Origin: Leucobacter aridicollis
GTDB lineage: Bacteria; Actinomycetota; Actinomycetes; Actinomycetales; Microbacteriaceae
DNA length: 64,000 bases
Assembly: GCF_024399335.1 (NCBI RefSeq)
Contig: NZ_CP075339.1
Span: 3,038,001 to 3,102,000, forward strand
Direction of reading: 5' to 3'
The notes under the pieces are model-generated. The model had not been told where the DNA came from. It saw only the letters and a program-made list of their open reading frames with translations, and made no database searches. Shown here piece after piece: positions 1 through 44,326 of the stretch. The position numbers and the translations under genes are program-made. Position 1 is the first letter of the stretch, and every line of letters begins with the position of its first letter.

Positions 1-2842
1 CAGCGGCAGCGGCGCGGCGCTCTGCTCGCTTACTCGCGCGCTTGCGCACCCGCTTCGGACGCTTGCGTCGCTCAGGGCGCTCAACAACCTCGCCCGTGGG
101 CAGCGCGAGCAGCAGCATTGCGAACAGCAGGACAAGCTGCGCGGTCCAGACAGTCTGCCCGCCGAACGAAGTCCCGACGAGCGCGGCAGACTCGTCCCCC
201 TCAGCTTCATGGCCTGTTGCGGCATCTGAGACGCGCCAGAGGAGTCCCTGCTCGGTCGTACCGACGCTCGCGAGTTCGGGGTGCTGGTCGAGCGTGCGCT
301 GGAGCTCGGTCTCCGCGCTCGGCTCATTCCCTGACCGCAGCAGCACGTAGGTGATGCGCTCGGCGTTCAGCGCGTCGGCGACGCTGCCGCCACCGATGCT
401 CGCGAGCGAGCCGACGAGTTCGGCGAGTTGCTTGTCGTCGTCGGTCGGGTCAGAGAGGCGCGCGGAGGTGCGGAAATCGTCAAGCTCGATACCCTCGCCT
501 GTCACAATTTCGGCGCGCATGGCTCCCTCACCTGACGCACTGAGTACGAGTGTGCGGGTGTTTGGGTTTTGTTCTCCAGCGACCTGGACGAGCGCGGGCA
601 TCCGAGACTCCCCTGGGCCCATCGGCACGTTGCCTGTGACAAGGCGCACCGCGATCGGCCCTGCAGCAACGACCGCTGCGACGAGCGCGACTGCGACGAC
701 CGCAGGCGCAGCACGTCGCGCCGTTTCGGCGCCGAGAGCTGCGAGCCCGAGTACGGCGAGCCAGTAGAGCACGAGGCCAGAACCCGTCCAGACCGCAATC
801 GGGGTGTCACCCGACGTGGTGGGCATGAGCTGGGTTGATCCGACCGCCGCGACTATTCCGAGCCCACCGAACAGGGCATGCAGCAGCGTTGCAGCTACCT
901 TGCCGGTGTAGAGGCCGAGCAGGGCCAGGAGTGCGATCGGAAGCATCAGCACGCCGACGAGGAGTGTCGCGGGTAGGTTACCGAGCCCGGCTGTCTCGAA
1001 GATGCGTCCCCAGCCGTCGAGGGCGAACTCTGGGAACCCGAGCAGCAGGTGCCAGGTCGTACCCGGTGTGTACGGCAGTGGGATCCCTGGGTCAGCGAGA
1101 AGGTCGAACGGTCGCCCGCCGAACACTGTCGCGATGATCTTCGGGCCGAAGAGCACGAGTGGAGCGATGGCGATCGACAGCACGCGCAGCGCGCCGCGCA
1201 GACTGGAGAATACGCCGACGACGAGGAAAACGAGCGCGACCGGGATGAGCACGGGGGCGCTCGCGAGGGCAACCGCAGCGAGCAGCGACGCAGTGCCAGC
1301 CCAGCTCCAGGACTCGCGACAGCGGGTGGCGGCGAGAAGCAACCACGGCATTACGACGGCCAGGATCAGCGTGGTGATTCGGCCCGAGGCGATCGAACCG
1401 AGCAGCACGGGGCTCAGAGCGAACCCGATGGCGACAACTGCCCGCGCCGCCCCCGACTCTGCAATCTGCGCCGCCCAGATCCAGGCGCCGAGCGCCGAGA
1501 GCGGAATTGCGATGATGAGCAGGATGACGAGCGCGTGCGAGGGGTTCCAGAACGTGACAGACCCGAGCACTGCGAGCACCCAGGCGAACGGGTCGGCGGG
1601 AACGCCGTCGAGTGTGCGGGTGTGATGCCAGAGCTCGCCGATAGGGCTGAGCGGCGCAAGGCCACCCCCGAACAGGCTCGTTTGGGCGATTGCCCACCAG
1701 GTAAGCGCGATCGCAGCCACCGCAGTAACCACGAGCACGGCGAGGCCGCCCGTCGAGACAAACCCGAGCTCTCGTGGAACACGCCCCTGGGCGGCAAGTA
1801 TCGCCTCGCGGTCGATCATTCGCGCGGTGCGCACCGTCTTTCTGTCGGTGCGCAGTGGGCGCACCGCTGCCCAGCCGACGCGTGACGCCCGCTTCACTCG
1901 TTTGCGTGACGCGAGAAGCGCTTTCGGGCGGAAGAAGACTGTCAGCGCGGCGACGAACTCGCCGATCATGTTTCCTGGTTGCTCGCGAATCAGCGCCCAG
2001 AAGACGCGAACGATTGCGAGAAGTGGCAATCCGAGCCACATGAGAAACGCAGGGAGTGCTGACGCGTAGGCAATGCGCCGGTGCAGGTGTGCGGTTCGAG
2101 CTTGCCTGTGGGCGGTGCGGAGCACTCCGCGGGACCTGTCGATGTGCGGCCCGGCGACGCCGCTTCTGGCGAAGCGCACCCGCGACTCTGGCGACACTTC
2201 GACCCTGTAGCCGGCGAGACGGGTGCGCACACAGAAGTCGAGCGCGTCGTCATAACTCGTGAAGGCTGGGTCGAAGCCGCCGAGCTCGTCCCACACGTCG
2301 CGGCGAACGAGCATGCCGACAGGGCCGACGCCGAGCACGTCCTCAAGGTGGTCGTACTGTTGTTGGTCGAGCTCTTGCCTCCTCAGCAGCCAGCGAGAGC
2401 CAGTCGTCGTGAGACTCTGTCCGAGCTCAATGATGCGCTCGGGGTGATCCCAGTCCACGAGTTTCGGGCCGGCGACGGCAACTGACTGCGCGCGCTGCAC
2501 GCTCGATAGGATCCGCTCGAGCGCCTCGGGCTCTGGGCAGGAGTCTTCACTCAGCAGCCAGATCCACTCTTCAGCCGGGTTTGATCCGGGAAGCACGGCG
2601 GAAAGCGCCGCGGCAACGGCGCGCCCGAATGACACGCGCGACGGGATGCCGATGACCCGCGACGCCTCGGCACCACCGAGGTTCGCGTGTACGAGCTGGG
2701 TGCCGACCCGCTCGGCGCCGCCGTTGTTGATGGCGACGATGGCGTTTGGGCGCCGCGTTTGAGAGGCGATCCCTGCGATCGTCTCATCGAGCCACTCCCC
2801 ACCTTGAGAAGCGACAATGACTGCGGTAACTGTGCTGCGCAT
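1..2842 (-). CDS. Large membrane glycosyltransferase, family 2 (3' end cut by window)
   Basis: A single minus-strand frame stays open from an ATG at 2842 to the left edge, at least 947 codons, so the stop lies outside the window. The N-terminal ~250 residues read as a GT2 fold: it opens MRSTVTAVIVASQGGEWLDE, followed by a WIWLLSEDSCPEPEALER acidic donor-site region, a GPVGMLVRRDVWDELGGFD acceptor-loop stretch, and then FDPAFTSYDDALDFCVRTRL. Hydrophobic segments begin near residue 275 and recur from about 360 onward, as expected for a multi-TM C-terminal half. It sits upstream of and divergent to nothing; whiB on the same strand precedes it, a pairing common in actinobacteria. It probably transfers a sugar to a cell-envelope glycan at the membrane; the substrate cannot be told. 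Confidence 0.85.
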   Translation of the reverse strand, partial: MRSTVTAVIVASQGGEWLDETIAGIASQTRRPNAIVAINNGGAERVGTQLVHANLGGAEASRVIGIPSRVSFGRAVAAALSAVLPGSNPAEEWIWLLSEDSCPEPEALERILSSVQRAQSVAVAGPKLVDWDHPERIIELGQSLTTTGSRWLLRRQELDQQQYDHLEDVLGVGPVGMLVRRDVWDELGGFDPAFTSYDDALDFCVRTRLAGYRVEVSPESRVRFARSGVAGPHIDRSRGVLRTAHRQARTAHLHRRIAYASALPAFLMWLGLPLLAIVRVFWALIREQPGNMIGEFVAALTVFFRPKALLASRKRVKRASRVGWAAVRPLRTDRKTVRTARMIDREAILAAQGRVPRELGFVSTGGLAVLVVTAVAAIALTWWAIAQTSLFGGGLAPLSPIGELWHHTRTLDGVPADPFAWVLAVLGSVTFWNPSHALVILLIIAIPLSALGAWIWAAQIAESGAARAVVAIGFALSPVLLGSIASGRITTLILAVVMPWLLLAATRCRESWSWAGTASLLAAVALASAPVLIPVALVFLVVGVFSSLRGALRVLSIAIAPLVLFGPKIIATVFGGRPFDLLADPGIPLPYTPGTTWHLLLGFPEFALDGWGRIFETAGLGNLPATLLVGVLMLPIALLALLGLYTGKVAATLLHALFGGLGIVAAVGSTQLMPTTSGDTPIAVWTGSGLVLYWLAVLGLAALGAETARRAAPAVVAVALVAAVVAAGPIAVRLVTGNVPMGPGESRMPALVQVAGEQNPNTRTLVLSASGEGAMRAEIVTGEGIELDDFRTSARLSDPTDDDKQLAELVGSLASIGGGSVADALNAERITYVLLRSGNEPSAETELQRTLDQHPELASVGTTEQGLLWRVSDAATGHEAEGDESAALVGTSFGGQTVWTAQLVLLFAMLLLALPTGEVVERPERRKRPKRVRKRASKRAERRAAAA

Positions 2843-2906
2843 AACGCCGTCAGTCTAGAAGGGGTGGCATGGTTTCAAACTGGGGGCATGCCGAGGAGCG
2901 CAAAGC

Positions 2907-3221
2907 TCAGCCGGCCTCGCGGCGCAGCTTGCGGCGTTCGCGCTCTGAAAGCCCGCCCCAAATGCCGAACCGCTCGTCGTTCTCGAGCGCGTAGTCGAGG
3001 CACTCCGAGCGCACCTCGCATGTCTCACAGATTCGCTTCGCTTCGCGGGTCGACCCTCCCTTTTCTGGGAAGAACGATTCTGGGTCGGTCTGCGCGCAGA
3101 GCGCGTCAGACTGCCATGCAAGAGCCTCATCTTCTGCCTGACGGCGAATTCCTGGGGTGCCGAGAAATACCGGATCGACAAACCAGTCGCCGGGAACGCC
3201 TGGCCCTGAAGCTTGTTCCAT
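2907..3221 (-). CDS. WhiB-family iron-sulfur transcriptional regulator
   Basis: A 104-aa protein with the four WhiB cysteines, C42, C65, C68 and C74 (the C-x2-C-x5-C cluster reads CETCEVRSEC), and the GIWGG turn at 86-90 followed by a basic tail ERERRKLRRE. WhiB proteins bind a [4Fe-4S] cluster and act with the principal sigma factor. Length and motif spacing resemble the WhiB2/WhmD group tied to septation and development, but that subgroup call is inference. I chose the ATG at 3221 because AAAGGAG stands 8 nt upstream; the ATG at 3266 in the same frame would make the protein run through that ribosome site. A strong promoter lies upstream (3284-3313). Confidence 0.92.
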   Translation of the reverse strand: MEQASGPGVPGDWFVDPVFLGTPGIRRQAEDEALAWQSDALCAQTDPESFFPEKGGSTREAKRICETCEVRSECLDYALENDERFGIWGGLSERERRKLRREAG

Positions 3222-5343: not shown

Positions 5344-6378
5344 ATGGCCGGGCTACACATACTCGTTGTCGACGACGATCCAGACGTCGCGCTCCTCGTA
5401 AAAACTGTGCTCGAGCGCCGGGCAGGAGCAACTGTCGCTGTCGCACACGACGCGGCTCGGGCGCTCGAGCAAGCGCGTGCGTCGCGCCCCGACATCGTCG
5501 TGACTGACATTGAGATGCCCGGCGCGAGCGGCATTGACCTCCTCACTGACATTCGCCGTGAGTTTCCCGGAGTTCCGGTACTCGTTATGACCGCGCACGT
5601 CTCCGTTGACTACGCCGTCTCGGCGCTCCGGGCACAGGCGGACGAGTTTCTGACGAAGCCGCTCGACAACACCCAACTCGTTGACGCAGTCACCCGCCTC
5701 GTCGAGGAGGCGCGCAGGCGCGGGCCTGGGCGTCGCCCCAATACCGTGCTCGCAGTTGGCGCGCACCCTGACGACGTCGAGATCGGAGTTGGCGGAATCC
5801 TCGCAGCTCACGCCGCCGCCGGCGACAGCATCACGATCCTGACCCTGTCGCGTGGCGCCCGCGGCGGAGACGCCGACAGCCGGCAGTTCGAGTCGCTCGC
5901 GGCTGCCGAATTGCTCGGCGCGCGCCTGTTTCTGAAAGACCTCGTCGACACCGAGATTCCGAACAGCGGGCAGACAGTGCGCCTGATCGAGGATGTCGTG
6001 CGAGAGGTCCAACCGACTGTCGTGTACACGCACTCGGGGAACGACAGGCATCAAGACCATCGCGCCGTGAGCGAGGCAACGATCGTCGCGACACGGAGCG
6101 TCGCTACCGTTGCCTGCTACCAGAGCCCGTCGGCGACGATCGATTTCAGACCGACACGGTTCGTGCGCATTGACGACTTCCTTGAGCGCAAGTTTGACTT
6201 ACTCGCCTGTTTTGACTCGCAGGTGGCGAGCCGCGACTACCTCACACGCGACTTCGTCACAGCTACAGCGCGATACTGGACCAGGTTCGGCGGCGGCAGG
6301 GCGGTAGAACCCCTCGAAATTGTGCGTGAAAGCACTGAACTTGCGCACAGCTACGAACGCCTCAGGTTGGAGAACTAA
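5344..6378 (+). CDS. Response-regulator receiver domain fused to a PIG-L (LmbE-like) deacetylase
   Basis: 344 aa in two clear parts. Residues 1-125 are a complete receiver domain: acidic triad D10-D12, phosphoacceptor D55 in TDIEMPG, T83 and K105 in LTKPL. After a short basic linker, residues 133-344 are a PIG-L zinc N-deacetylase: AHPDDVE at 140-146 (H141 and D144 as zinc ligands) and HSGNDRHQDH at 230-239 with the HxDH signature. PIG-L enzymes remove acetyl groups from GlcNAc-type sugars or pseudopeptides. No DNA-binding domain is present, so phosphorylation should control the deacetylase directly (inference). It opens a seven-gene run in which neighbouring genes overlap; its TAA shares a base with the next ATG. 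Confidence 0.9.
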   Translation: MAGLHILVVDDDPDVALLVKTVLERRAGATVAVAHDAARALEQARASRPDIVVTDIEMPGASGIDLLTDIRREFPGVPVLVMTAHVSVDYAVSALRAQADEFLTKPLDNTQLVDAVTRLVEEARRRGPGRRPNTVLAVGAHPDDVEIGVGGILAAHAAAGDSITILTLSRGARGGDADSRQFESLAAAELLGARLFLKDLVDTEIPNSGQTVRLIEDVVREVQPTVVYTHSGNDRHQDHRAVSEATIVATRSVATVACYQSPSATIDFRPTRFVRIDDFLERKFDLLACFDSQVASRDYLTRDFVTATARYWTRFGGGRAVEPLEIVRESTELAHSYERLRLEN

Positions 6379-7367
6379 TGCCCACTCGCGTACTCGTCAC
6401 CGGCGCGGGCGGGCCCGCCGGAGTCGCGGTGATTCGCTCGCTGCTTCGTAGGCCTGACCTCGAAGTCTTCGCAGCCGATATGGATGGCTGGGCGAGCGGG
6501 CTCTATCTCGTGCCAGCTGAACGGCGACGGCTAGTGCCGCCTGGGCGTGACGACTCGTTCGTCCCAGCGCTCGCGCAGCTCGTGTCCAGCGATGCGCTCG
6601 ACCTCGTGATCTCGACAGTCGATGTTGAGCTCGTTGCTGTCGCTGACCGCAGGGATGAACTCGCGCCCGCAGTCCTCGCGGCGCCGAGCTCAGACACGCT
6701 GCGCGTGTGCCTCGACAAGCTGGCCCTCGCAGAGCGGTGCGCGTCGACGGGCAGATCGCCGCGAACCGTCGCTGCCGGCCCGGAAGCGCTCGCGATCGAC
6801 TGGGAGTTCCCCGCCTTTGCAAAACCGCGCCAGGGTGCTGGCAGCCGCGGAATTCGCGTGGTGGCCGGCAGAGAGGCGCTTGAGGCGCTCCCGCTCGACG
6901 AGGGCCTCATTGTGCAGGATCTCCTCCCCGGAGACGAGTACTCGGTGGACGTCATTGCAGACGCAGCGGGGAACGTGGTCGCCGCCGTGCCGCGCACCCG
7001 CGCCCGCGTAGACTCGGGCGTCGCTATCGCCGGGCAAACCGTGCACGACTCTGAGCTTGAGGAAACCGCCGCAGCGATCGCTCGCGCGATCGGTCTGACC
7101 GGTGTGGCGAACGTCCAGCTGCGCCGAGACCGCGCCGGGCGCGCGATGCTGCTTGAAGTGAACCCCCGCTTCCCGGGTGCGCTCCCACTCACAATCTCAG
7201 CGGGTGTCGACATTCCATCGCTCGTTGTTGACTTGTTCCTCGGTAGGGATGTTCCGGCGAGCGTCGAATTCCGCGAGGTCGCGGCAGTGAGATTCCTCGA
7301 GGACATCGTCGTCGAGGTGTCAGACGTACTCGAGTCGGCGCACGCCGGCCACCAGGACGACGCATGA
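6378..7367 (+). CDS. ATP-grasp ligase, carbamoyl-phosphate-synthase-like
   Basis: 329 aa. An N-terminal Rossmann-like pre-ATP-grasp domain begins RVLVTGAGGPAGVAVIRSL (4-22). The ATP-grasp core shows the nucleotide-binding lysine region FAKPRQGAGSRGI near 147, the hinge IVQDLLPGDEYSVDV near 180, and the metal-binding LEVNPRFPG near 259. These proteins join a carboxylate, as an acyl phosphate, to an amine or other nucleophile. Being sandwiched between a deacetylase that could free an amine and a PHP hydrolase suggests it acylates or aminoacylates the product, but that is inference. It starts inside the stop of the previous gene and overlaps the next by 4 nt. Confidence 0.85.
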   Translation: MPTRVLVTGAGGPAGVAVIRSLLRRPDLEVFAADMDGWASGLYLVPAERRRLVPPGRDDSFVPALAQLVSSDALDLVISTVDVELVAVADRRDELAPAVLAAPSSDTLRVCLDKLALAERCASTGRSPRTVAAGPEALAIDWEFPAFAKPRQGAGSRGIRVVAGREALEALPLDEGLIVQDLLPGDEYSVDVIADAAGNVVAAVPRTRARVDSGVAIAGQTVHDSELEETAAAIARAIGLTGVANVQLRRDRAGRAMLLEVNPRFPGALPLTISAGVDIPSLVVDLFLGRDVPASVEFREVAAVRFLEDIVVEVSDVLESAHAGHQDDA

Positions 7368-8095
7368 GCGAACCCACCGCAGACTCAGGGATTCTCGGCG
7401 GCGATTTCCACGTGCACTCAACGTTCTCGGATGACGCTCGCTCGTCTCTCGCCGAGAACGTCGCGGCAGCCGCAGCCGCGGGCCTCCACACGGTGCGCCT
7501 CGTCGACCACGTGCGGCAATCTACCTCCTGGGTCCCCGAATACCTCGCTGCCGTCGCGGCTCTCGAAGTTCCCGACGGCCTCACTGTTCTCACCGGTGTC
7601 GAAGCGAAGATGCTGACCACCGAAGGCGAGCTCGACATTCCTGCGTTGCCCGCCGGGATCGACAGGATCCTCATCGCCGACCACCAGTTCCCGACAGCTG
7701 CGGGCCCTGTCGGCCCCTCCGAGATCATCGAGCGCATCTCTGCGGGGTTGTCCCCCACTGACGCCCTCGACGACTGCATCGCCGCACTCATCGCCGCGAT
7801 GGAGCGCTACCCAGGCAACCAGCTCGCCCACTGCTTCTCGATCCTGCCGAAAGTTGGACTCAGCGAGGATGACCTCTCGCGAGAGCACCTCGAAGCGTGG
7901 GCGCTGACCGCCGCGCGCACCGACACGTACGTTGAAGTCAACGAGAAGTGGGGCTGCCCTGGCCCGCGCGCGATCGCGGCTCTCCGGGCGGCCGGCGCGA
8001 CGCTCATCGCCTCGACAGACAGCCACGACGCAGCGACTGTTGGCAGCTATTCCCGCGTGCGTGAGCTCCTGCTGAACGCCGAGGCCACGCCGTGA
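7364..8095 (+). CDS. PHP-domain metal-dependent hydrolase
   Basis: 243 aa with the four PHP motifs: DFHVHSTFSDDA at the N terminus, LVDH, TGVEAK and a C-terminal STDSHD. The polymerase-and-histidinol-phosphatase fold binds two or three metals and usually cleaves phosphate esters; relatives include histidinol phosphatase and the YwqE/CpsB tyrosine phosphatases of capsule loci. All metal-ligand positions I can pick out appear intact, so it should be active. The ATG at 7364 overlaps the previous stop (ATGA), and its own stop overlaps the next GTG. The substrate is unknown; a phosphorylated sugar, a lipid or a phosphoprotein of this operon are the plausible choices. Confidence 0.85.
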   Translation: MSEPTADSGILGGDFHVHSTFSDDARSSLAENVAAAAAAGLHTVRLVDHVRQSTSWVPEYLAAVAALEVPDGLTVLTGVEAKMLTTEGELDIPALPAGIDRILIADHQFPTAAGPVGPSEIIERISAGLSPTDALDDCIAALIAAMERYPGNQLAHCFSILPKVGLSEDDLSREHLEAWALTAARTDTYVEVNEKWGCPGPRAIAALRAAGATLIASTDSHDAATVGSYSRVRELLLNAEATP

Positions 8096-9570
8096 ACGGG
8101 TTTCAGATCGCCCTCGCGGTCCTTCTGCTCGTGTGCGTGCTCGTTGGTACGCTGCCAGTGTTCAACACCGCGTTCCAGTTTCTCGTGCTCCCGTTCCACG
8201 CCGTTAAGAATCACTACCGGCGCGCGGCTCCGTTCACGCCAAACGTTGCGGTCATCGTTCCCGCTTGGAACGAGGGGCTCGTCATCGGAGCGTCGATCGA
8301 CAGGCTCCTCACCCTCGACTACCCAGAAGACAAGCTGCGCATCTTCGTTGTCGACGACGCCTCAACCGACGACACTCCCGACGTTGTGCTCGCCCGCGCA
8401 GCACAGCATCCCGGTCGCGTCGTGCACCTCCGGCGCGAGGTTGGCGGAGAGGGCAAGGCGCACACCCTGAACCACGGGATCTCGAAGGTACTTGCGGAGC
8501 CGTGGGCCGAGGCTGTACTGATCATGGATGCCGACGTCATCTTCGCCCACGACTCGCTTGGCAAGCTCACGCGGCACCTCGCCGACGAACGCGTCGGAGC
8601 TGTCACCGCGTACATCGCCGAGGGATCTGCTGACCGCAACTACCTCACGCGGTTCATCGGCATCGAGTACGTCATCGCCCAGCTCGCTGCGCGCCGCGCA
8701 CAGAACGTGCTCGGCGCCGTCGCCTGCCTCGCGGGAGGCGCCCAGTTGCACTCACGCGCGAATCTCGAAGCGATCGGCGGCCGGATTCCAACTGGCACGC
8801 TCGCTGAGGACACAATGACAACGTTCGAAAGCCAACTCACTGGCCGGAAGATGGTGTTCGAGCCGCACGCAGTCGTGCTCGCGGAAGAGCCCCGCACCGT
8901 CGACGCGTTGTGGAAGCAGCGTCTTCGCTGGGCCCGCGGAAACGTGCAGCTCACGTCGATCTACAAGCGGCTCTGGTTCCGCCCGAGCCGAACCCACAAG
9001 CTCGGGAGCATTCCGTTCGGCGTCGCCTGGTTCAGCATTCTGCTGCTGCCGGCGTTTCTCGTGCTCTCGGCCGCCGCACTGTTCGCGCTGCTGCTCCTGC
9101 ACAGCGACATCGCCGAATCAGTCTTCAGGTTCATGTGGATCGTGGCCGCCTGCACCTACATGTACTCGATCCTCTTCGCTGTGCAACTCGACCCGCGCAC
9201 CGCTCGCCACTCCTGGCGCGAGGCGCTCCTGTTTCCAGGCCTCGGGGCCATGGTCATCATGGCAGTCGCGTTGTTCCCCGGGGTGACAGACGCGGCACTC
9301 ACCGAGTGGTTCGGCAGGCTCACCCCTGGCGACCGGTTCGTGACTTCGAGCATCCTGTACCTGTGGGGGCCGCTGTCGCTTCTCGGGGCGTGGCTCGCGC
9401 GCTGGGTCGAGCGGTTCACGGGCGGAAAGTTTGTCGCTGGTCTACTGATTTACGTGTGCGGCTATGGTTCACTCCTGTGTGCCATTACTGTTGATTCCTA
9501 CATCAAGGAATGGCGCCGAGCAGACGCTTCTTGGGTGAAGACCGAGAAGGTTGGAAGGGTCGTTTCATGA
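8092..9570 (+). CDS. Processive family-2 glycosyltransferase, BcsA/PgaC-like
   Basis: 492 aa with one N-terminal membrane segment (about 5-30), a cytosolic GT2 domain, and four or five C-terminal membrane segments. Motifs of processive inverting synthases are present in order: VVDDASTDDTP, MDADVI (the DxD-type donor site), LAEDT (catalytic ED) and QRLRWARG (the QxxRW acceptor/channel motif). Such enzymes polymerise UDP-sugars and pass the chain through the membrane, as in cellulose, hyaluronan or poly-GlcNAc synthesis. The PIG-L deacetylase in the same operon makes GlcNAc a reasonable guess. It begins with GTG overlapping the previous TGA. Confidence 0.9.
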   Translation: MNGFQIALAVLLLVCVLVGTLPVFNTAFQFLVLPFHAVKNHYRRAAPFTPNVAVIVPAWNEGLVIGASIDRLLTLDYPEDKLRIFVVDDASTDDTPDVVLARAAQHPGRVVHLRREVGGEGKAHTLNHGISKVLAEPWAEAVLIMDADVIFAHDSLGKLTRHLADERVGAVTAYIAEGSADRNYLTRFIGIEYVIAQLAARRAQNVLGAVACLAGGAQLHSRANLEAIGGRIPTGTLAEDTMTTFESQLTGRKMVFEPHAVVLAEEPRTVDALWKQRLRWARGNVQLTSIYKRLWFRPSRTHKLGSIPFGVAWFSILLLPAFLVLSAAALFALLLLHSDIAESVFRFMWIVAACTYMYSILFAVQLDPRTARHSWREALLFPGLGAMVIMAVALFPGVTDAALTEWFGRLTPGDRFVTSSILYLWGPLSLLGAWLARWVERFTGGKFVAGLLIYVCGYGSLLCAITVDSYIKEWRRADASWVKTEKVGRVVS

Positions 9571-9698
9571 GTACACGCGAATCAGATGAAGAGATTCGGC
9601 GCGACGCCAGGCGCGAGCTGCGGCTCGTACCGCAGGCGCTGATTGCACTCATCATCGTTGCCGCGGTAGCCATCGCGCGAGAGCTGTTGCTCCGATGA
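9567..9698 (+). CDS. 43-aa single-pass membrane protein
   Basis: A short gene whose ATG overlaps the glycosyltransferase stop (ATGA) and whose own end overlaps the next start, so its reading frame is fixed by context. The product has a charged, acidic-then-basic N-terminal half (about 1-20) and one hydrophobic helix (about 21-40) ending in ARELLLR. It resembles no family I can name. Position between a membrane synthase and a receiver protein suggests a small accessory subunit, like those that stabilise or gate processive glycosyltransferases, but nothing in its sequence proves that. Confidence 0.7.
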   Translation: MSTRESDEEIRRDARRELRLVPQALIALIIVAAVAIARELLLR

Positions 9699-10042
9699 GC
9701 CCGAGCTTGCTTGCCCTCACCGTCGAGGACAACGCCGAGCAGACAGAGCTGCTGCGGCGCATGCTTGAGCGCGAGGGATACGAGGTCTTTTCAGCACCCG
9801 ACGCTGAGACCGCGATCGCCGCCTTCCCTGATATCCAGCCGTCGCTCGCGATCGTTGACCTCAGGCTCCCCGGCGTCACCGGGAGCGAATGCATCGACAT
9901 CTTGCGCTCCCGGTTTCCGAGCTGCCGCATCATCGTAAGCTCAGTGCTCGACGAAGACGAGTACCCGCGCGCAGACGCGTCGCTTCCCAAACCGTTTACA
10001 GGCGCAATGTTGCACGACCTACTTGCGGAGCTCACCCAGTGA
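9695..10042 (+). CDS. Stand-alone response-regulator receiver
   Basis: 115 aa, a single receiver domain with nothing after it. The acidic pocket is E11-D12, the phosphoacceptor is D55 in IVDLRLPG, the conserved serine is near 82-83, and K99 sits in LPKPF. With no output domain it is either a phosphate relay intermediate or sink, or acts by protein contact. It overlaps both neighbours by 4 nt. The kinase directly downstream is the obvious phosphodonor, and the receiver/PIG-L fusion at 5344 the obvious second target. Confidence 0.9.
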   Translation: MSPSLLALTVEDNAEQTELLRRMLEREGYEVFSAPDAETAIAAFPDIQPSLAIVDLRLPGVTGSECIDILRSRFPSCRIIVSSVLDEDEYPRADASLPKPFTGAMLHDLLAELTQ

Positions 10043-11805
10043 TCGACAGTCGAGAAGTCAGGTGGTACCGCAACTTCGATCAGCCGAGTCCGCTGCTCAA
10101 GCAGGCTCCGTCGGCTGTCGCGTTCTTGCTCGCCCTCACCACCGTGTTCCTCGTGCCAGGGCTTGCGCCCGTCGATGCCACGCTCATGCTGCTCTCCGGC
10201 GCGCTCATCGCCGGGGCCACAGTTTTCGCAGTGCTCCTGAGAGCGCGCGGGCATTTTCAGGGCCCAATCGTGCTCCTCATACCACTCGTCGACTTCCTCG
10301 GATTCGCCTTTTTCCGCGCGGCGACCGGCGCGGGTCAGTCGCTGTTCGCGACGCTCGTGCTCATCCCGATCGCATGGCTCGCGACCGCACCCGGTATTCG
10401 CCAGGTTGCAGTCGTTTTTGTGCTGAGTGCCGCGATGGTTTTCATCCCCTACATCACGCACCCGCCCGAGAACAGCACCGACCTGCTCCGCGGCATCATC
10501 GTCCCGCTCATCTACGCCACAGTGGCGGCGGTGATCAACGAGCTCGCCCGCCAGCAACGCGCGCGCGTGGAGCAGGCCGAGCGACTCGCCTCCGAGCGCA
10601 CCCGCGCCCTCCGCGCGAACGAGCAGGCGCTCGCACAGCTCCGCGAGAGCGAAACCCGCTACCGAACCCTGCTCGAATCTCACGAGAGCCTCTGGGCAGC
10701 AATCACCGCCCAGGCCGTCATCGCGACGGACTGCAACGGCCTCGTCAGCGCCTGGAATCCAGGGGCTGAACGCATGTTGGGCCTCAGCGAAGCCGAGGCC
10801 CTCGATGACGTCAGTATCGACAGGTTCTTCTCCCCCGCAGTGCTCGCGGCGCTCGCGGGCACGCGCCCAGGCGATCCGCCAAGCACCCCAGCCGAGCCGA
10901 GTGTTCGCGCGCTTTTCGAGCTCGCAAACGCCGGCTCAACGCTCGACGAAGAACTCGAAATTCAGACGGCCGCCGGGAGCAGGATCCCGGCCAGGGTCAC
11001 GGTCACGCGCAGAAACGACGGCGCAGGCAACCAACAGGGGTATCTACTCGTCGTCACTGACGAAACTCGCCAGGCTGAGGTCGCCCGGATGAAGGATGAG
11101 TTCGTCGGGATGATCTCGCACGAGCTTCGCACCCCGCTCAGCGCCATCATTGGGTTCCTCGACCTGCTGCGCAACGACCCCGAGCAGCCACTCGCAGACC
11201 AGCAGATCGAGTTCGTCGACATCATCGAGCGAAACGCAAAGCGCCTGCTCGCGCTCGTTGGCGACCTGCTCTTCACCGCGCAGGTTGAGTCGGGGAGATT
11301 CCCAATCACACCGCACCACGTCGATATCTACGACGCCCTCCGGCTTGCAACCGAATCGGCCCGGCCGCACGCTGAGGGCGAAGGCGTTGAGCTAAAGATC
11401 GACACTCCGGCGGAGCCGCTCTTCGTCATGGCGGACGGCGGCCGGCTCGGGCAGGCGATCGACAACCTCATCTCGAACGCGATCAAATTCACGCCACGCG
11501 GCGGTCGGGTGACGGTGGCGGGGATGCAACGCGATGGCGCAGTTGCGATCTCCGTGAGCGACACGGGCATCGGTATTCCGAAGGCCGAACAGGCAGACCT
11601 CTTCAACAGGTTCTTTCGGGCGTCCACCGCGACGCAGAACGCGATTCCCGGAGTTGGCCTCGGCCTCAACATCACGCACGCGATCGCGGTCGCTCACGGT
11701 GGCGACATCACAGTGGTGAGCGACGAGGGTGCCGGAACGACATTCGAGATGCGGCTGCCGCTCGCTCCACCCACACAAGCGATCCCGGTGGTACAGCGCG
11801 GCTGA
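10039..11805 (+). CDS. Six-TM PAS sensor histidine kinase
   Basis: 588 aa from a GTG that overlaps the preceding stop. Six hydrophobic segments fill residues ~20-165, like a MASE-type integral sensor with almost no outside loop. A coiled coil (about 168-205) leads to a PAS domain (about 206-320), then HisKA with H361 in MISHELRTPLS, and HATPase_c with the N box NLISNAIKFTP, G1 DTGIGIP and G2 GVGLGLNITHA. The frame is open far upstream, but those codons belong to the receiver gene in another frame. The membrane-embedded sensor could read a lipid, the membrane state or the polymer made by the operon. Its stop is inside a hairpin that probably ends the transcript. Confidence 0.92.
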   Translation: MIDSREVRWYRNFDQPSPLLKQAPSAVAFLLALTTVFLVPGLAPVDATLMLLSGALIAGATVFAVLLRARGHFQGPIVLLIPLVDFLGFAFFRAATGAGQSLFATLVLIPIAWLATAPGIRQVAVVFVLSAAMVFIPYITHPPENSTDLLRGIIVPLIYATVAAVINELARQQRARVEQAERLASERTRALRANEQALAQLRESETRYRTLLESHESLWAAITAQAVIATDCNGLVSAWNPGAERMLGLSEAEALDDVSIDRFFSPAVLAALAGTRPGDPPSTPAEPSVRALFELANAGSTLDEELEIQTAAGSRIPARVTVTRRNDGAGNQQGYLLVVTDETRQAEVARMKDEFVGMISHELRTPLSAIIGFLDLLRNDPEQPLADQQIEFVDIIERNAKRLLALVGDLLFTAQVESGRFPITPHHVDIYDALRLATESARPHAEGEGVELKIDTPAEPLFVMADGGRLGQAIDNLISNAIKFTPRGGRVTVAGMQRDGAVAISVSDTGIGIPKAEQADLFNRFFRASTATQNAIPGVGLGLNITHAIAVAHGGDITVVSDEGAGTTFEMRLPLAPPTQAIPVVQRG

Positions 11806-11821: not shown

Positions 11822-11944
11822 CGCGAGCCTCTGTGGTCGAGCGAGCCGTCGCCAGAGTCATGTGCCTGCAGGGCGTCCCGCAGTGTTCGCCCGTAGCAAT
11901 CCTGCACACATGGTGAGCGGGAGAGCGCTATGCTGAGGGGGTGT

Positions 11945-12083
11945 TCCGGGGTCGGTGGGATTCCGAACCGGCGGTGAAAGTCCGCGACCTCCGCATCCGC
12001 GGGGCTGAATCGGTGAAATTCCGATACCGACGGTGATGTGTGGGGCTTTGGCTCACGCACAAGTCCGGATAGGAGGAACGCGG
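11945..12083 (+). promoter_or_regulatory. FMN riboswitch (RFN element)
   Basis: The conserved blocks of the FMN aptamer are present in order: CCGGGGTCGGTGG, GAACCGGCGGTGAAAGTCC, GCGACC, a variable arm, GGTGAAATTCC, ACCGACGGT, and AGTCCGGATAGGAGGAACG. It stands 54 nt ahead of the first riboflavin gene and should lower its expression when FMN is abundant. The segment between aptamer and ATG contains the ribosome site AAAGGGA; control of translation start is more likely than termination because no U-tract hairpin is visible. Confidence 0.95.
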
Positions 12084-12137
12084 GTGACTGAGGCGACGCC
12101 TTGAGCACCCCATACCCGGGCACCCGAAAGGGATGAC

Positions 12138-12617
12138 ATGCCTGCAGCGCACGCACTCTCACCACAGGTGATCGAGGCAGCAATGCGTCGTGGGCTTGCG
12201 CTTGCCGAGCGCGGCCCCGAGCGGGACGAGAACCCACAGGTTGGCTGCGTCATCCTCGACGACGCTGGCGCAACCGTTGCTGAGGGCTGGCATGAGGGAG
12301 CTGGCACCCCACACGCGGAGGTTATGGCGCTCGCATCGCTCCCCCATGACATCGACGCTGCTCGGCTGACAGCGGTCGTCACGCTCGAACCGTGCAATCA
12401 CACGGGTCGTACGGGCCCGTGCGCTGAGGCGCTGCTTGCGCGCGGCATTGGAGCCGTCGCATTCGGGCTGTCTGACCCCGGGGCGGCGTCGAGCGGGGGC
12501 GGCGAGACGCTCCGCGCTGCCGGTGTCGCCGTCACCGGTGGTGTGCTCGCGGCAGAGGTCGGCGCATTCCTCGCTCCCTGGCTCGCACGGCAGGCGGGAG
12601 TGAACGATGACCGCTAG
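12138..12617 (+). CDS. ribD: Diaminohydroxyphosphoribosylaminopyrimidine deaminase (RibD N-terminal half as separate gene)
   Basis: 159 aa, just the cytidine-deaminase-like half of RibD. Zinc ligands H59, C86 and C95 and the catalytic E61 are in place (HAEV and PCNHTGRTGPC), as is ENPQVGCVI near the N terminus. It deaminates the pyrimidine made by GTP cyclohydrolase II in riboflavin synthesis. The gene stops exactly at the domain border where most RibD proteins run on into a reductase; the reductase is encoded by the next gene in another frame with an 11-nt overlap. Confidence 0.9.
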   Translation: MPAAHALSPQVIEAAMRRGLALAERGPERDENPQVGCVILDDAGATVAEGWHEGAGTPHAEVMALASLPHDIDAARLTAVVTLEPCNHTGRTGPCAEALLARGIGAVAFGLSDPGAASSGGGETLRAAGVAVTGGVLAAEVGAFLAPWLARQAGVNDDR

Positions 12618-13227
12618 ACCCACAGTGACCGTGAAGTGGGCGCAAACGATCGACGGCCGCGCAGCCGCCGCCGACGGCACAAGCCAGTGGATCAGTGGCC
12701 CAGCCGCCCGCGCCGACGTCCACGCGCGCCGTGCCGCGGCGGACGCGATCCTCATCGGCACAGGCACACTCCTCGCCGATGACCCGTCGCTCACGGCCCG
12801 AACACCAACCGGTGACTTGCTCGTCGAAGCCGCTGACCAACCGATTCCGGTCGTTGTCGGCGCGCGCGAGATTCCCTCTGGCGCGAAGGTGCTGCGCCAC
12901 CCGGCGCTCGCTTCGAGCGGGTCGCTCCCCATTCGGCTCGCGGGTGCAGACCTTGCCGCCGACCTCGCGACGCTTCACGAGCGCGGGATCCGCTCCCTCT
13001 TCGTTGAGGGCGGACCGCATATCGTGAGCTCCCTACTCAGGCTCGGCCTCGTCGACGAACTGCTCATCTACGTCGCCCCCGCGCTGCTTGGCGGGCCACG
13101 GCTCGCGGTGAGCGACCTCGGCATCGACACGATGGCAGGCATCGCCAGGCTCTCGTTTTCGAGCGTCGAGCGCCTGGGTCCAGACCTCTTGATTGTTGCA
13201 ACGCCCGAACCGAAGGAGACCCGCTAG
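12607..13227 (+). CDS. 5-amino-6-(5-phosphoribosylamino)uracil reductase (RibD C-terminal half as separate gene)
   Basis: 206 aa matching the dihydrofolate-reductase-like half of RibD: VTVKWAQTIDGRAAAADGTS at the start, GTGTLLADDPSLTAR, and the NADPH-side FVEGGPHIVSSLL near 140. It reduces the ribose of the deaminated intermediate using NADPH. The ATG at 12607 has GGGAG 6 nt upstream, inside the end of the deaminase gene, which supports a real start and not a sequencing frameshift. Its TAG shares a base with the GTG of the next gene. Confidence 0.88.
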   Translation: MTARPTVTVKWAQTIDGRAAAADGTSQWISGPAARADVHARRAAADAILIGTGTLLADDPSLTARTPTGDLLVEAADQPIPVVVGAREIPSGAKVLRHPALASSGSLPIRLAGADLAADLATLHERGIRSLFVEGGPHIVSSLLRLGLVDELLIYVAPALLGGPRLAVSDLGIDTMAGIARLSFSSVERLGPDLLIVATPEPKETR

Positions 13228-13856
13228 TGTTCACCGGACTTATCGAAGAGATCGGCGAGATCGTCGCCATCGAGCCACTCGGCGACTCCCTCAGGCTCAC
13301 AGTCGCTGGCCCGCTCGTCACGAGCGACGCAACCCACGGGGCCTCTATCGCCGTCTCTGGTGTCTGCCTGACGGTCATCGAACAGGGCGCGGACGAGACG
13401 GGCCGCGGCACTTTCAGCGCCGACGTCATGGCGCAGTCGATCAAGATGTCGACGCTCGGAGACCTCAGCGTCGGCAGCAAGGTCAACCTTGAGCGCGCGG
13501 CACGCCTCGATACCCGGCTCGGCGGCCACATCGTTCAGGGGCATGTTGACGGCACCGCGACGCTGCTCACCGTCGCAGACGGCGACGCCTGGCGTACGCT
13601 CCGTTTCGCGCTCTCCCGCGACCTCGCCCCGCTGCTCGTCGACAAGGGATCAGTGACGCTTTCAGGTACCTCACTCACGGTGTCGGCGATCTCGCCGGCA
13701 GCAGAGACTGAGCAGTGGTTCGAGGTCTCACTCATTCCCGAGACGCTCGAAGCGACAACACTCGGCGCGCTCAGCCCAGGCGATCGCGTCAACGTCGAAA
13801 CCGATCTCATTGCCCGCCACGTCGAGCGCATGCTCAGCTTCACGCCGCAGGCGTAG
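13227..13856 (+). CDS. ribE: Riboflavin synthase, alpha subunit
   Basis: 209 aa made of two lumazine-binding repeats. It opens with the family signature MFTGLIEEIGEI, and VNLERAARLDTRLGGHIVQG marks the join to the second repeat. The enzyme dismutates two 6,7-dimethyl-8-ribityllumazine molecules to riboflavin. Translation starts at a GTG overlapping the reductase stop, so the two are translationally coupled. Confidence 0.95.
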   Translation: MFTGLIEEIGEIVAIEPLGDSLRLTVAGPLVTSDATHGASIAVSGVCLTVIEQGADETGRGTFSADVMAQSIKMSTLGDLSVGSKVNLERAARLDTRLGGHIVQGHVDGTATLLTVADGDAWRTLRFALSRDLAPLLVDKGSVTLSGTSLTVSAISPAAETEQWFEVSLIPETLEATTLGALSPGDRVNVETDLIARHVERMLSFTPQA

Positions 13857-13898
13857 CAAGCTGCTCCCACGATTCACACACACGCTAAAGGACATCGA

Positions 13899-15167
13899 AT
13901 GACTACTGAACGTACCGAGGGTATCGCCTCGATCGACGAGGCCATCGCCGCGATCAAGGCCGGCCGCCCGGTCATCGTCGCAGACAACGAGAACCGTGAG
14001 AACGAGGGCGACGTGATCATCTCGGCCGAGCTCGCCTCAGCCGAGTGGATCGCGTGGACCGTGCACCGCTCGTCGGGGCTGCTCTGCGCCCCAATGACGA
14101 ACGAGATCGCCGACAAGCTCGACCTCCCCATGATGGTTGAGCGCAACGAAGACGTGCGCGGCACTGCGTACACAGTCACCGTTGATGCAGCGCATGGCGT
14201 CACCACCGGCATCAGCGCGAGCGACCGCGCGACGACAGCGCGCGTACTTGCAAACCCCGACGCTGTTCCGACAGACGTGAATCGGCCCGGCCACATCCTG
14301 CCGCTCCGCGCCGTCGACGGCGGCGTGCGCGCCCGCGATGGCCACACTGAGGCCGCCGTGGAGCTCATGCGGCTCGCTGGGCTGCGCGAGGTAGCGATCA
14401 TCGCCGAGATCGTCGCCGACGACGGTGAGATGATGCGTCTGCCGGGCCTCATCGAGCTTGGCGGCGCTGAAGGCGTTCCAGTCATCACGATCGAGCAGCT
14501 CATCGCGTACCTCAACGAGCACGACCCTGCAGGCACGCCCGCGGTGCAGGGACACTCGCGCCGCGTGAGCCTCCGGGCAGACACCCTGCTTCCCACCGAG
14601 CACGGAGACTTCCGCGCCCTCGCGTACCGTGACCGCCGTGCCGGGGTCGACCACGTCGCGCTCGTCGCTGCTGGACCAGACGGTGCGATGCCAGGCAAGG
14701 GCGCACTTGTCCGCGTTCACTCCGAGTGCATCACTGGTGAGGCATTCGGATCGCTCAAGTGCGAGTGCGGGCCGCAGCTCGACGCTGCGCTCGATCTCAT
14801 TCACGAGCGCGGGGGCGTCGTCGTGTACCTCCGTGGCCAGGAGGGACGCGGGATCGGGCTCGCAAACAAGCTTCGCGCCTACCAGCTGCAGGAGAGCGGC
14901 GTCGACACTCTCGACGCGAACCTGCAGCTCGGACTCCCAGCTGACGCGCGCGACTACACGGCAGCTGCCGAGATCCTTTCCGACCTCGGCATCAGCGACG
15001 TGCGGCTGCTCACGAACAATCCCGATAAGGTTGCCCAGCTTGAGGCACACGGGCTTGCAGTGGCCGACAGGGTGCCGCTGTTCGTCGGAGTGACCGACGA
15101 GAACCGAGGCTACCTGCAGGCCAAGCGTGACCGAATGGGACACGCGCTGCCTGCGGGCGAACTCTAA
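13899..15167 (+). CDS. ribBA: Bifunctional DHBP synthase / GTP cyclohydrolase II
   Basis: 422 aa. The N-terminal half is 3,4-dihydroxy-2-butanone-4-phosphate synthase with DNENRENEGD at 29-38. The C-terminal half is GTP cyclohydrolase II, with zinc cysteines C277, C288 and C290 (SECITGEAFGSLKCECG), RGQEGRGIGL and RLLTNNP. The two activities provide both precursors of lumazine. The ribosome site AAAGGA precedes the ATG. It is the fourth gene of the FMN-controlled operon. Confidence 0.97.
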   Translation: MTTERTEGIASIDEAIAAIKAGRPVIVADNENRENEGDVIISAELASAEWIAWTVHRSSGLLCAPMTNEIADKLDLPMMVERNEDVRGTAYTVTVDAAHGVTTGISASDRATTARVLANPDAVPTDVNRPGHILPLRAVDGGVRARDGHTEAAVELMRLAGLREVAIIAEIVADDGEMMRLPGLIELGGAEGVPVITIEQLIAYLNEHDPAGTPAVQGHSRRVSLRADTLLPTEHGDFRALAYRDRRAGVDHVALVAAGPDGAMPGKGALVRVHSECITGEAFGSLKCECGPQLDAALDLIHERGGVVVYLRGQEGRGIGLANKLRAYQLQESGVDTLDANLQLGLPADARDYTAAAEILSDLGISDVRLLTNNPDKVAQLEAHGLAVADRVPLFVGVTDENRGYLQAKRDRMGHALPAGEL

Positions 15168-15222
15168 ACCGGCGCATTCGATACGCACGATCCACACGAG
15201 TTAAGAACAGAGGACACCAGAA

Positions 15223-15726
15223 ATGAGTGGAGCAGGAGCCCCAACGCTCGCCGTCGACGCGACAGGGATGCGCGTCGCAATCATCGCAGGAAGCTGGCAC
15301 ACGGAGATCATGACAGGTCTCATCGCTGGCGCAGAGGCGTCAGTTGCCGCTTCGGGCGCCACGCACTCGCTCTTCAGGGTCGCGGGCGCGTTTGAATTGC
15401 CCGCAGCCGCTCAGGCAGCGCTCACTCCGGTGGCGCAGGGGGGCGGCGGGTTCGACGCGGCAGTCTGCCTCGGCGTCATCATTCGCGGCGGCACACCGCA
15501 CTTCGAGTACGTCTCGAGCGCCGTGACCGACGGACTCACTCGCGTGCAGCTCGACACGAGCCGCCCCGTTGGCTTCGGCGTTCTCACGACAGACAATGAG
15601 CAGCAGGCGCTCGATCGTTCGGGCCTGCCAGGCTCCATCGAGTCGAAGGGTGTTGAGGCAGCCGAGGCTGCCCTGCACCTCGCTGACGCGATGCGGACGA
15701 TCCGTGAGGCCGGCGCGGCCGCCTAG
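15223..15726 (+). CDS. ribH: 6,7-dimethyl-8-ribityllumazine synthase
   Basis: 167 aa. It contains the lumazine synthase blocks AIIAGSWHTEIM, VAGAFELPAAAQ, CLGVIIRGGTPHFEYVS and FGVLTTDNEQQALDR. It joins the DHBP and pyrimidine precursors; the family forms icosahedral or pentameric shells. GAGGACA precedes the ATG, and a strong terminator follows, ending the operon. Confidence 0.96.
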   Translation: MSGAGAPTLAVDATGMRVAIIAGSWHTEIMTGLIAGAEASVAASGATHSLFRVAGAFELPAAAQAALTPVAQGGGGFDAAVCLGVIIRGGTPHFEYVSSAVTDGLTRVQLDTSRPVGFGVLTTDNEQQALDRSGLPGSIESKGVEAAEAALHLADAMRTIREAGAAA

Positions 15727-43340: not shown

Positions 43341-44326
43341 AGAGTGTCCTCCATCGGCCCCAAGCCCCGCGACCCAACACGGTCAACGACGTACAGGGGC
43401 CGGTTCTGCGCTTGGGCGTGGATATGCGCGAGGTACACCGCCATCATGCCCTGGGCAGTAAGCACAATCCCGACCATGAATGTCACGAAGATACCGAGTA
43501 GCGCCGCACCGCTGAAGCGCAGATGCAGCGGGTCGCCAAGCAAGAACTGCTCGACCCCGATAAAGACTCCGGCGAGCAGCGCGAGCAGCGTGCACGCAAC
43601 ACCGACATAACCAAAGAAGAATAGTGGCCGCAGGCTCATCGTAGTGAAGCTGTTGACCGCGAGGCCGAAAAGCTTGCCGACCGTGTAACTCGCATCGCCT
43701 GCGATCCGCGCTGGGGCGTCGAACTCGACGTACGCCCGCCGAAAGCCGAGCCAGTCGATGAGCCCCCGGGTGATTCGGTTCCGTTCCGTAAACCGAAGGA
43801 ACTCGCGGCGCACGTCGCTGTCGATGAGCCGATAGTCCGTGGACCTCGGCACGGTCTGCATCTCGGAAATCGCGTTAAGGAGGCGGTAAAAAGACCGGGA
43901 TCCGATGCGCTTCATCATGCCCTCGCGCTGGTTGCTTTGGCGCACCCCGACTACGACCTGCGCTCCGGCGCGCCACCGCGCAACAAACTCGCCAATGAGC
44001 GCCGGCGGGTGCTGCCCGTCCGCGTCCATGATCACTGTCGCTCCCCCGCGGGATTGTGCAATACCCGCGGTAACGGCGACCTCCTTGCCGAAATTGCGTG
44101 ACAGATTGATTACTCGAACCCGACTGTCAGCGTCCGCGATCTCAGTCAGGAGTTCGAGCGTGGCGTCGGTGCTGCCGTCATTTACGTACACCACTTCGAA
44201 GGGAGCGTCGAGCTGTGTCTCCAATGCTGGCACGAGTACCTCTGCATGGAAGTACGCTATTCCGTCTTGCTCGTTATGCGCGGGCAGCACGACCGAAATC
44301 TCGGGGGGGCGCGGTCCGCGCGACAT
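43337..44326 (-). CDS. Polyprenyl-phosphate glycosyltransferase, GtrB/DPM-like
   Basis: 329 aa. The GT2 domain shows SVVLPAHNEQDGI, VNDGSTDATLELL, INLSRNFGKEVAVTAGIAQS and IMDADGQHPP, all typical of dolichol-phosphate mannose synthase relatives. Two C-terminal membrane helices (about 230-260 and 270-300) are typical of GtrB/ArnC. It should charge polyprenyl phosphate with a sugar on the inner face. The next gene encodes the GtrA-type flippase part. Confidence 0.92.
   Translation of the reverse strand: MSRGPRPPEISVVLPAHNEQDGIAYFHAEVLVPALETQLDAPFEVVYVNDGSTDATLELLTEIADADSRVRVINLSRNFGKEVAVTAGIAQSRGGATVIMDADGQHPPALIGEFVARWRAGAQVVVGVRQSNQREGMMKRIGSRSFYRLLNAISEMQTVPRSTDYRLIDSDVRREFLRFTERNRITRGLIDWLGFRRAYVEFDAPARIAGDASYTVGKLFGLAVNSFTTMSLRPLFFFGYVGVACTLLALLAGVFIGVEQFLLGDPLHLRFSGAALLGIFVTFMVGIVLTAQGMMAVYLAHIHAQAQNRPLYVVDRVGSRGLGPMEDTL

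Follow-up and report, generated by a model that had tools for sequence, protein, structure and literature searches.

Why would a two-component system share an operon with a set of putative glycan-making enzymes? This question is raised by a 64,000-nucleotide stretch of the Leucobacter aridicollis genome (positions 3,038,001 to 3,102,000 of contig NZ_CP075339.1, a single contig of 3.6 Mb). We will call this stretch the window. At window positions 5344–11805, seven genes on the + strand encode, in order, a receiver domain fused to a PIG-L domain, predicted to be a phospho-regulated de-N-acetylase (5344–6378; 344 amino acids), an ATP-grasp ligase of the ATPgrasp_Ter / PRK12767 type (6378–7367; 329 amino acids), a PHP-domain hydrolase that is probably a phosphatase (7364–8095; 243 amino acids), a membrane glycosyltransferase of family 2 (GT2) and of the polysaccharide-synthase type (8092–9570; 492 amino acids), a 43-amino-acid peptide with a single transmembrane segment (9567–9698), a lone receiver (9695–10042; 115 amino acids), and a PAS sensor histidine kinase with six transmembrane segments (10039–11805; 588 amino acids). 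We propose that these genes probably encode a synthase-dependent system for making an exopolysaccharide, and that its two-component proteins control it directly. Our proposal draws on gene content, linkage, residue conservation, and an exporter-like predicted fold.

A preliminary description of this locus, made from the sequence alone, had claimed these seven genes in this order with overlapping stops and starts, including a PAS kinase with six transmembrane segments and a membrane peptide. Coordinates, junction lengths, Pfam domains, and hydropathy bear this out. The genes are co-directional and all six internal junctions overlap, by 1 base where the stop codon of the fusion meets the ATG of the ATP-grasp gene and by 4 bases at each of the five later junctions. 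The fusion matches PF00072 (E = 4.1e-31) and PF02585 (E = 2.3e-24); the ATP-grasp protein matches PF15632 (E = 2.9e-32), the PHP protein PF02811 (E = 3.2e-08), the GT2 PF13641 (E = 1.7e-31), and the lone receiver PF00072 (E = 7.5e-15). The kinase has PAS_9, HisKA, and HATPase_c domains, and the peptide, which lacks a Pfam family, was classified by hydropathy. (Hydropathy gives one transmembrane segment for the peptide, six for the kinase, and one plus four for the GT2.) An independent gene caller that relies on codon usage reported the same ends for six of the seven genes and missed only the gene for the peptide. The kinase most probably starts with the GTG at 10039; the mechanical open reading frame starts at 9889.

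Do these genes belong together? A neighborhood scan could have shown that they are rarely found near each other, and in the genomes sampled it gave the opposite result. (The family and phylum names of our genome samples were inferred from named relatives; we took the window's family to be Microbacteriaceae. In each genome, only the top candidates from a first look were scored.) We sampled 120 genomes evenly from the window's family and found the fusion in 22 genomes (E ≤ 1e-45) and the GT2 in 13 (E ≤ 1e-60), and all 13 GT2 genomes were among the 22 with the fusion. The chance of this overlap is about 6e-12 if genomes are independent, which they are not; this calculation ignores kinship. The two genes were within about 2 kb of each other in 12 of the 13 genomes and far apart in the other (G055); another genome, G025, has a second, distant GT2. 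Among 81 genomes from the Cellulomonas family, 13 had the fusion and 6 had the GT2. Every one of these 6 also had the fusion, with the two genes adjacent in 5 and on separate contigs in one. Among 296 genomes from the window's phylum, either gene was found only in the window's own genome and in one other, and the two genes were adjacent in both. So the GT2 was never seen without the fusion in the three actinobacterial samples (13/13, 6/6, and 2/2). The sample for the class of a Marinicella genome that carries the module matched only in that genome (1 of 143), too few for an unbiased count of co-occurrence in Gram-negatives.

We also compared the best 80 fusion loci of at least 492 fusion-related stretches, so the frequencies of their neighbors are biased towards close relatives. 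(Loci are referred to by L numbers. L034 and L083–L087 were dropped because they had no full-length fusion call, which left 74 of the 80. Duplicate rows are L001/L089/window, L081/L090/L091/L105, L047/L102, L037/L131, and L120/L134.) The closest fusions among the named relatives in the matches listed are from Leucobacter. The best 80 loci include Actinobacteria (Microbacterium, Leucobacter, Leifsonia, Cellulomonas, Blastococcus, Serinicoccus, Streptomyces, Thermoleophilia, and Ilumatobacteraceae) as well as Proteobacteria (Marinicella, Acidiferrobacterales, Burkholderiales, Rhodospirillales, and Reyranella), Myxococcota, and Rhodothermales. Within 7 kb of the 74 fusions, we found the ATP-grasp gene 60 times, the GT2 53 times, the kinase 51 times, and the PHP gene 49 times. 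And of 24 genomes that were chosen mostly because the GT2 was missing from the locus or distant from it, 18 encode a GT2 somewhere. The seven genes form one conserved, recurring module, which is seen in numerous records from Microbacterium and Leucobacter and sporadically among Gram-negatives.

What might the GT2 make? The motifs DD, DAD, AED, and QRxRW are present in all 65 GT2 rows (62 distinct proteins). Together with the five hydrophobic segments, these are motifs of the processive type, although motifs alone do not prove processivity. The best match in NCBIfam is to PgaC/IcaA (TIGR03937), with 118.1 bits as compared to a cut-off of 422.3. Scores against other models were lower: 84 bits for NodC, 69 for HpnB, and 46 for HpnI.

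A short hydrophobic open reading frame overlaps the GT2's stop codon or follows shortly after it in 55 of 65 GT2 rows, and homologues of the window's peptide lie beside 51 of the 62 distinct GT2 genes. (For the latter count, three duplicate rows were removed, and an unrelated match in L094 was counted as lacking the peptide.) Copies are also found in Marinicella, Rhodospirillales, Rhodothermales, and Streptomyces. In an alignment of 52 rows (with one locus present twice), one position is aspartate or asparagine in all 52, a glutamate is kept in 51, and an arginine after the transmembrane segment is kept in 43. In L092, L020, and L022, where the GT2 is elsewhere in the genome, the peptide stays with the fusion, the ATP-grasp, PHP, and receiver genes, and the kinase. 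The preliminary description had listed a 43-amino-acid membrane peptide; judging from its conservation, we now consider it a conserved component of the module and a companion of the synthase. By analogy, it may be a docking protein like BcsF or a co-subunit like PgaD or IcaD. BcsF is a single-pass peptide that brings the cytosolic protein BcsE to cellulose synthase (PMC11470070). As described in PMC7112194, PgaD and IcaD are needed for full glycosyltransferase function, and PgaC-PgaD is linked to switching by cyclic di-GMP (c-di-GMP).

Relatives in diderm bacteria suggest how the product might be exported. A secreted protein with tetratricopeptide repeats (TPR) and a β-barrel is encoded near the fusion in 11 of the 74 loci, all from diderm lineages. 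We considered the AlphaFold2 model of the Marinicella protein (mean predicted local distance difference test score (pLDDT) of 91.3), which has 11 helices followed by 14 strands. Its best match in the PDB is E. coli BcsC (E = 2.2e-13, TM-score 0.40, root-mean-square deviation 11.7). So, as judged from one model with BcsC as its best match, some diderm relatives have a predicted TPR and β-barrel exporter of the kind that is expected of synthase-dependent systems. The model also matches 4y25, which is titled as a bacterial polysaccharide outer membrane secretin, and PelBC, as well as many general barrels (FadL, OmpF, and others). Also, BcsB-like proteins are encoded at L064 and L088 (identified with Pfam) and at L070 (identified with a profile). 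Together with the motifs of the GT2, these partners favor polysaccharide export, but they do not prove it.

The preliminary description left it open whether the product was a secreted polymer or a glycolipid, and the export partners support the first of these and not the second. In a glycolipid pathway, the GT2 would add one amino sugar to a lipid, the PIG-L domain would deacetylate it (much as in the synthesis of glycosylphosphatidylinositol or of hopanoids), and the ATP-grasp enzyme would acylate the amine. The classical substrates of PIG-L enzymes are indeed glycolipids or small glycosides, and the GT2 is similar to the HpnB and HpnI models. However, the GT2 is closer to PgaC/IcaA and to NodC, and the TPR-barrel protein, the BcsB-like partner, and the small transmembrane protein suit the export of a polymer. 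We therefore consider a membrane glycolipid unlikely.

How might synthesis be controlled? In the receiver of the fusion, the phospho-accepting D55 is conserved in 84 of 88 distinct proteins (92 rows with duplicates) and K105 in 77, and the metal-binding and catalytic positions of the PIG-L domain are kept in 84–88 of the 88. A receiver fused to a catalytic domain, with a conserved phospho-acceptor, is what is expected of a response regulator with an enzymatic output. The kinase's H361 is present in all 58 rows (54 distinct), and the lone receiver's D55 and K99 in all 30 rows (28 distinct). A kinase of this type is encoded on the same strand within 7.5 kb at 58 of 93 distinct loci (61 rows with duplicates), and all 58 of these kinase-linked fusions retain the phospho-accepting aspartate. 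In 18 of the 58 (19 rows), the fused receiver is the sole receiver within 1.5 kb of the operon, which fits with direct control of the enzyme by the kinase and implies that the lone receiver is optional. (L016, L106, and L035–L038 have no lone receiver.)

Sensors vary between loci. The window has the PAS membrane kinase. In L059, a gene for a haem-NO-binding protein and a hybrid kinase adjoin the fusion, and homologues of the haem-NO-binding gene are found in L050 and L061. In the myxococcal locus L134, a hybrid kinase with an HNOBA domain adjoins the GT2 and ATP-grasp genes. The receiver that is fused to the enzyme is apparently the recurring link to these changing sensors.

The remaining enzymes are also well conserved. 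K149, E260, and N262 of the ATP-grasp protein, whose closest solved structure is 2pn1, are present in all 69 rows (67 distinct), and D106, H107, and D219 of the PHP protein, which is related to YcdX (PDB 1m65; 2.2e-06), are present in all 60 rows (57 distinct). Among the 60 loci with an ATP-grasp gene near the fusion, 48 have the PHP gene, 5 have a His-phosphatase, 3 have a low-molecular-weight protein tyrosine phosphatase, and 4 have none of these (two of the 4 are at contig ends). No locus has two of these kinds of hydrolase. (For each of the two alternative phosphatases, one member was verified with Pfam.) Three unrelated hydrolases in the same slot suggest a common dephosphorylation step.

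In our proposed mechanism, the substrate, the polymer, the phosphotransfer, the allosteric effect, and the docking are all inferred. Cytoplasmic enzymes would prepare the precursor or the nascent chain: the PIG-L domain would strip off N-acetyl groups, the ATP-grasp enzyme would link the amine exposed in this way to a carboxylate, perhaps an amino acid, and phosphate would be taken off an intermediate or a protein by the PHP enzyme. The GT2 would polymerize and extrude an amino-sugar polymer, and the single-transmembrane peptide would steady the GT2 or dock its partners. The kinase would phosphorylate the receiver that is fused to the PIG-L domain, which would switch deacetylation and hence alter how charged the polymer is or how much of it is made. 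The TPR-barrel protein of diderm relatives would move the product across the outer membrane.

Taking all of the parts together, the module could represent an undescribed class of exopolysaccharide machine, spanning multiple phyla, whose phosphorelay acts directly on precursor chemistry. We regard this joint reading as possible rather than probable. The receiver-gated deacetylase and the ATP-grasp enzyme would swap the acetyl group for another acyl group before or during polymerization, and the peptide would dock the cytosolic enzymes on the synthase. Interchangeable sensors, including nitric oxide sensors in some Gram-negatives, would quickly set the polymer's charge, and would do so by phosphorelay rather than by transcription or c-di-GMP. 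In known synthase-dependent polymers, switching commonly occurs through c-di-GMP or transcription, and deacetylation commonly takes place outside the cytoplasm. If our proposal is correct, then such polymers would also be subject to another logic of control, in which a two-component system acts directly on the enzyme that modifies the sugar. The module also hints at what a family of tiny membrane peptides may do, and at a function for receiver/PIG-L fusions, which are often named just "response regulator" in the source records.

Several observations weigh against the module being an exopolysaccharide system under direct control. First, the fusion occurs without the GT2 in 9 of the 22 fusion-bearing genomes in the window's family, in 7 of the 13 in the Cellulomonas family, and in 6 of the 24 selected genomes described above. 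Some fusions adjoin other glycan-related genes: a glycosyltransferase family 4 (GT4) gene is just upstream of the fusion in L100, and GT4 and glycoside hydrolase family 92 genes adjoin it in L104. Second, no peptide was detected at 11 of the 62 distinct GT2 genes. Third, judging from its Leucobacter relatives, the organism of the window is probably monoderm, as an actinobacterium, so its export route has to be deduced from its relatives. Fourth, at 35 of the 93 distinct loci, no kinase of this type is linked to the fusion on the same strand. Four fusions lack the phospho-accepting aspartate (L076 8632–9684, L077 8968–10041, L079 7607–8770, and L080 8884–10047), and none of these has a linked kinase, yet all four have the GT2 and ATP-grasp genes nearby. 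As far as can be read from these sequences, the enzyme set can exist without the phospho-switch, so the switch is not needed everywhere. These four fusions may derive from a few loss events, and as kinase-free proteins without the aspartate, they are a natural comparison set. Finally, DNA-binding response regulators are encoded near some fusions (OmpR type in L027 and L081, and LuxR type in L059), and in these loci, transcriptional control may add to or replace control of the enzyme.

So we also considered that the kinase might act through a DNA-binding regulator, with the receiver of the PIG-L protein being vestigial or aiding dimerization. The nearby regulators fit this idea, as do the four fusions that lost the aspartate but kept the GT2 and the ATP-grasp enzyme. 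But the conservation of the aspartate and lysine, the presence of the aspartate in every kinase-linked fusion, and the lack of any other receiver near 18 of the 58 kinase-linked operons argue against it, and we give it only a small chance of being correct. The preliminary description had reasoned that, as neither receiver has a DNA-binding domain, the kinase should regulate enzyme activity. Those 18 loci fit this reasoning, and the loci with OmpR or LuxR regulators or without the aspartate speak against it.

How does the module, which we still take to be probably a synthase-dependent system under direct control, compare to known systems? Like type II cellulose secretion (Bcs), it has a GT2 synthase and, in some loci, a BcsC-like TPR-barrel protein and a BcsB-like partner. 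But we found no PilZ domain in its seven genes, and the other enzymes differ. Its single-transmembrane peptide is comparable to BcsF, except that its soluble part precedes the transmembrane segment, while the cytosolic tail of BcsF is C-terminal (PMC11470070). Poly-N-acetylglucosamine (PNAG) systems (PgaABCD / IcaADBC; for PgaC, PgaD, IcaA, and IcaD, see PMC7112194) also have a membrane GT2, a small transmembrane partner (a role that the module's peptide may share), deacetylation (which is predicted for the module), and, in Gram-negatives, a TPR-barrel exporter. In contrast to PNAG systems, the module's PIG-L domain is cytoplasmic and fused to a receiver, and the module includes an ATP-grasp enzyme and a phosphatase. 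It seems improbable that the module is a divergent PNAG system whose deacetylase was replaced by PIG-L: PgaC_IcaA is the GT2's top NCBIfam model, and the small transmembrane protein and the TPR-barrel protein resemble PgaD/IcaD and PgaA, but the GT2 scores far below the cut-off and so does not qualify as a PgaC/IcaA equivalog, the seven genes of the window (which are the ones we examined) include no polysaccharide deacetylase of the PgaB/IcaB kind, and ATP-grasp enzymes and phosphatases are not known to have a role in PNAG synthesis.

The individual enzymes have known relatives as well. By profile matches, the PIG-L and ATP-grasp proteins share folds with BshB1-type deacetylases and PRK12767 proteins, but they score below the curated cut-offs, and they differ in the fusion to a receiver and in being near a GT2. 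Receivers that are fused to metabolic enzymes, including BcsA-like glycosyltransferases, are known from a census of archaeal two-component systems, in which a term search did not find PIG-L (PMC5847659). In the module, the output is PIG-L instead, and the fusion is found in multiple bacterial phyla. A term search of the main text of a survey of synthase-dependent operons (PMC7112194) likewise gave no hit for PIG-L, LmbE, or ATP-grasp. A search by title and abstract, with most subscription papers outside its reach, found no literature on this gene set; its results included two papers in which PIG-L or LmbE occurs together with biofilm topics (PMC12613277 and PMC9487997). So the module is apparently an undescribed variant of synthase-dependent exopolysaccharide systems.

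Some loci have other arrangements. In L045, L047/L102, L096–L101, and L103, the fusion is accompanied by the kinase and by a variable number of lone receivers, with no ATP-grasp, PHP, or GT2 gene in the stretch examined. For instance, L102 7905–17400 (which is the same place as L047) is a truncated module in which a single fusion is accompanied by several lone receivers and by a row of four kinases, all of the same type. Loci L054, L056, and L057 have a fusion and a kinase that face a pair lying farther off, a divergent GT2 and an ATP-grasp-like protein (identified by Pfam in L054). These variants suggest that receiver/PIG-L proteins are a family wider than this module, with several glycan enzymes as partners. 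The latter three loci also encode c63, a protein of unknown family, and might be a parallel system.

Two other families are found near the module. Proteins of about 112–121 amino acids are encoded near the GT2 or the fusion in several phyla (L061 5419–5784, L062 14680–15018, L064, L070, and L088); the member from L061 had no Pfam match. The family c36, of large proteins with a signal-like N-terminus, is encoded 3' of the GT2 (L080 13376–15196, L079 12090–13898, and L074 13280–14746). It has 8 rows, of which L120/L134 are one protein with weak scores (44 and 64 bits). The L079 and L080 copies had no Pfam matches when scanned. We considered that c36 might be an alpha/alpha-barrel glycosidase, but we did not use this idea, as the structural model had a pLDDT of 56.4 and no match at E ≤ 0.001. 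On visual inspection of their sequences, the neighbors c1 and c2 looked ordinary (aminotransferase-like and nitrilase-like).

In the window, trpS ends 32 bases upstream of the start of the fusion, and between the kinase and the riboflavin genes there are 332 bases, which include a flavin mononucleotide (FMN) riboswitch. A scan for sigma-70-like promoters found none, and there was one terminator-like site as compared to 3.3 expected by chance, so co-transcription with trpS is possible. Both the presence and the place of the gene set vary: a genome from the same genus (G096), which has no fusion at E ≤ 1e-45, has two other genes between trpS and the riboflavin genes, and the operon of L. tardus (L016) is flanked by different neighbors. 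The two genes in G096 have 222 and 746 codons (L141 5630–8625, - strand).

The riboswitch is at 11938–12084 and is followed by ordinary riboflavin genes at 12138–15726 (a split ribD, ribE, ribBA, and ribH). On the - strand at 2–3221, a large protein with at least 946 codons in the window has an N-terminal GT2 domain and adjoins a gene for a WhiB regulator; both are conserved in L009. The highest AT skew of any 2-kb segment of the window, 0.254, is at 42001–44000.

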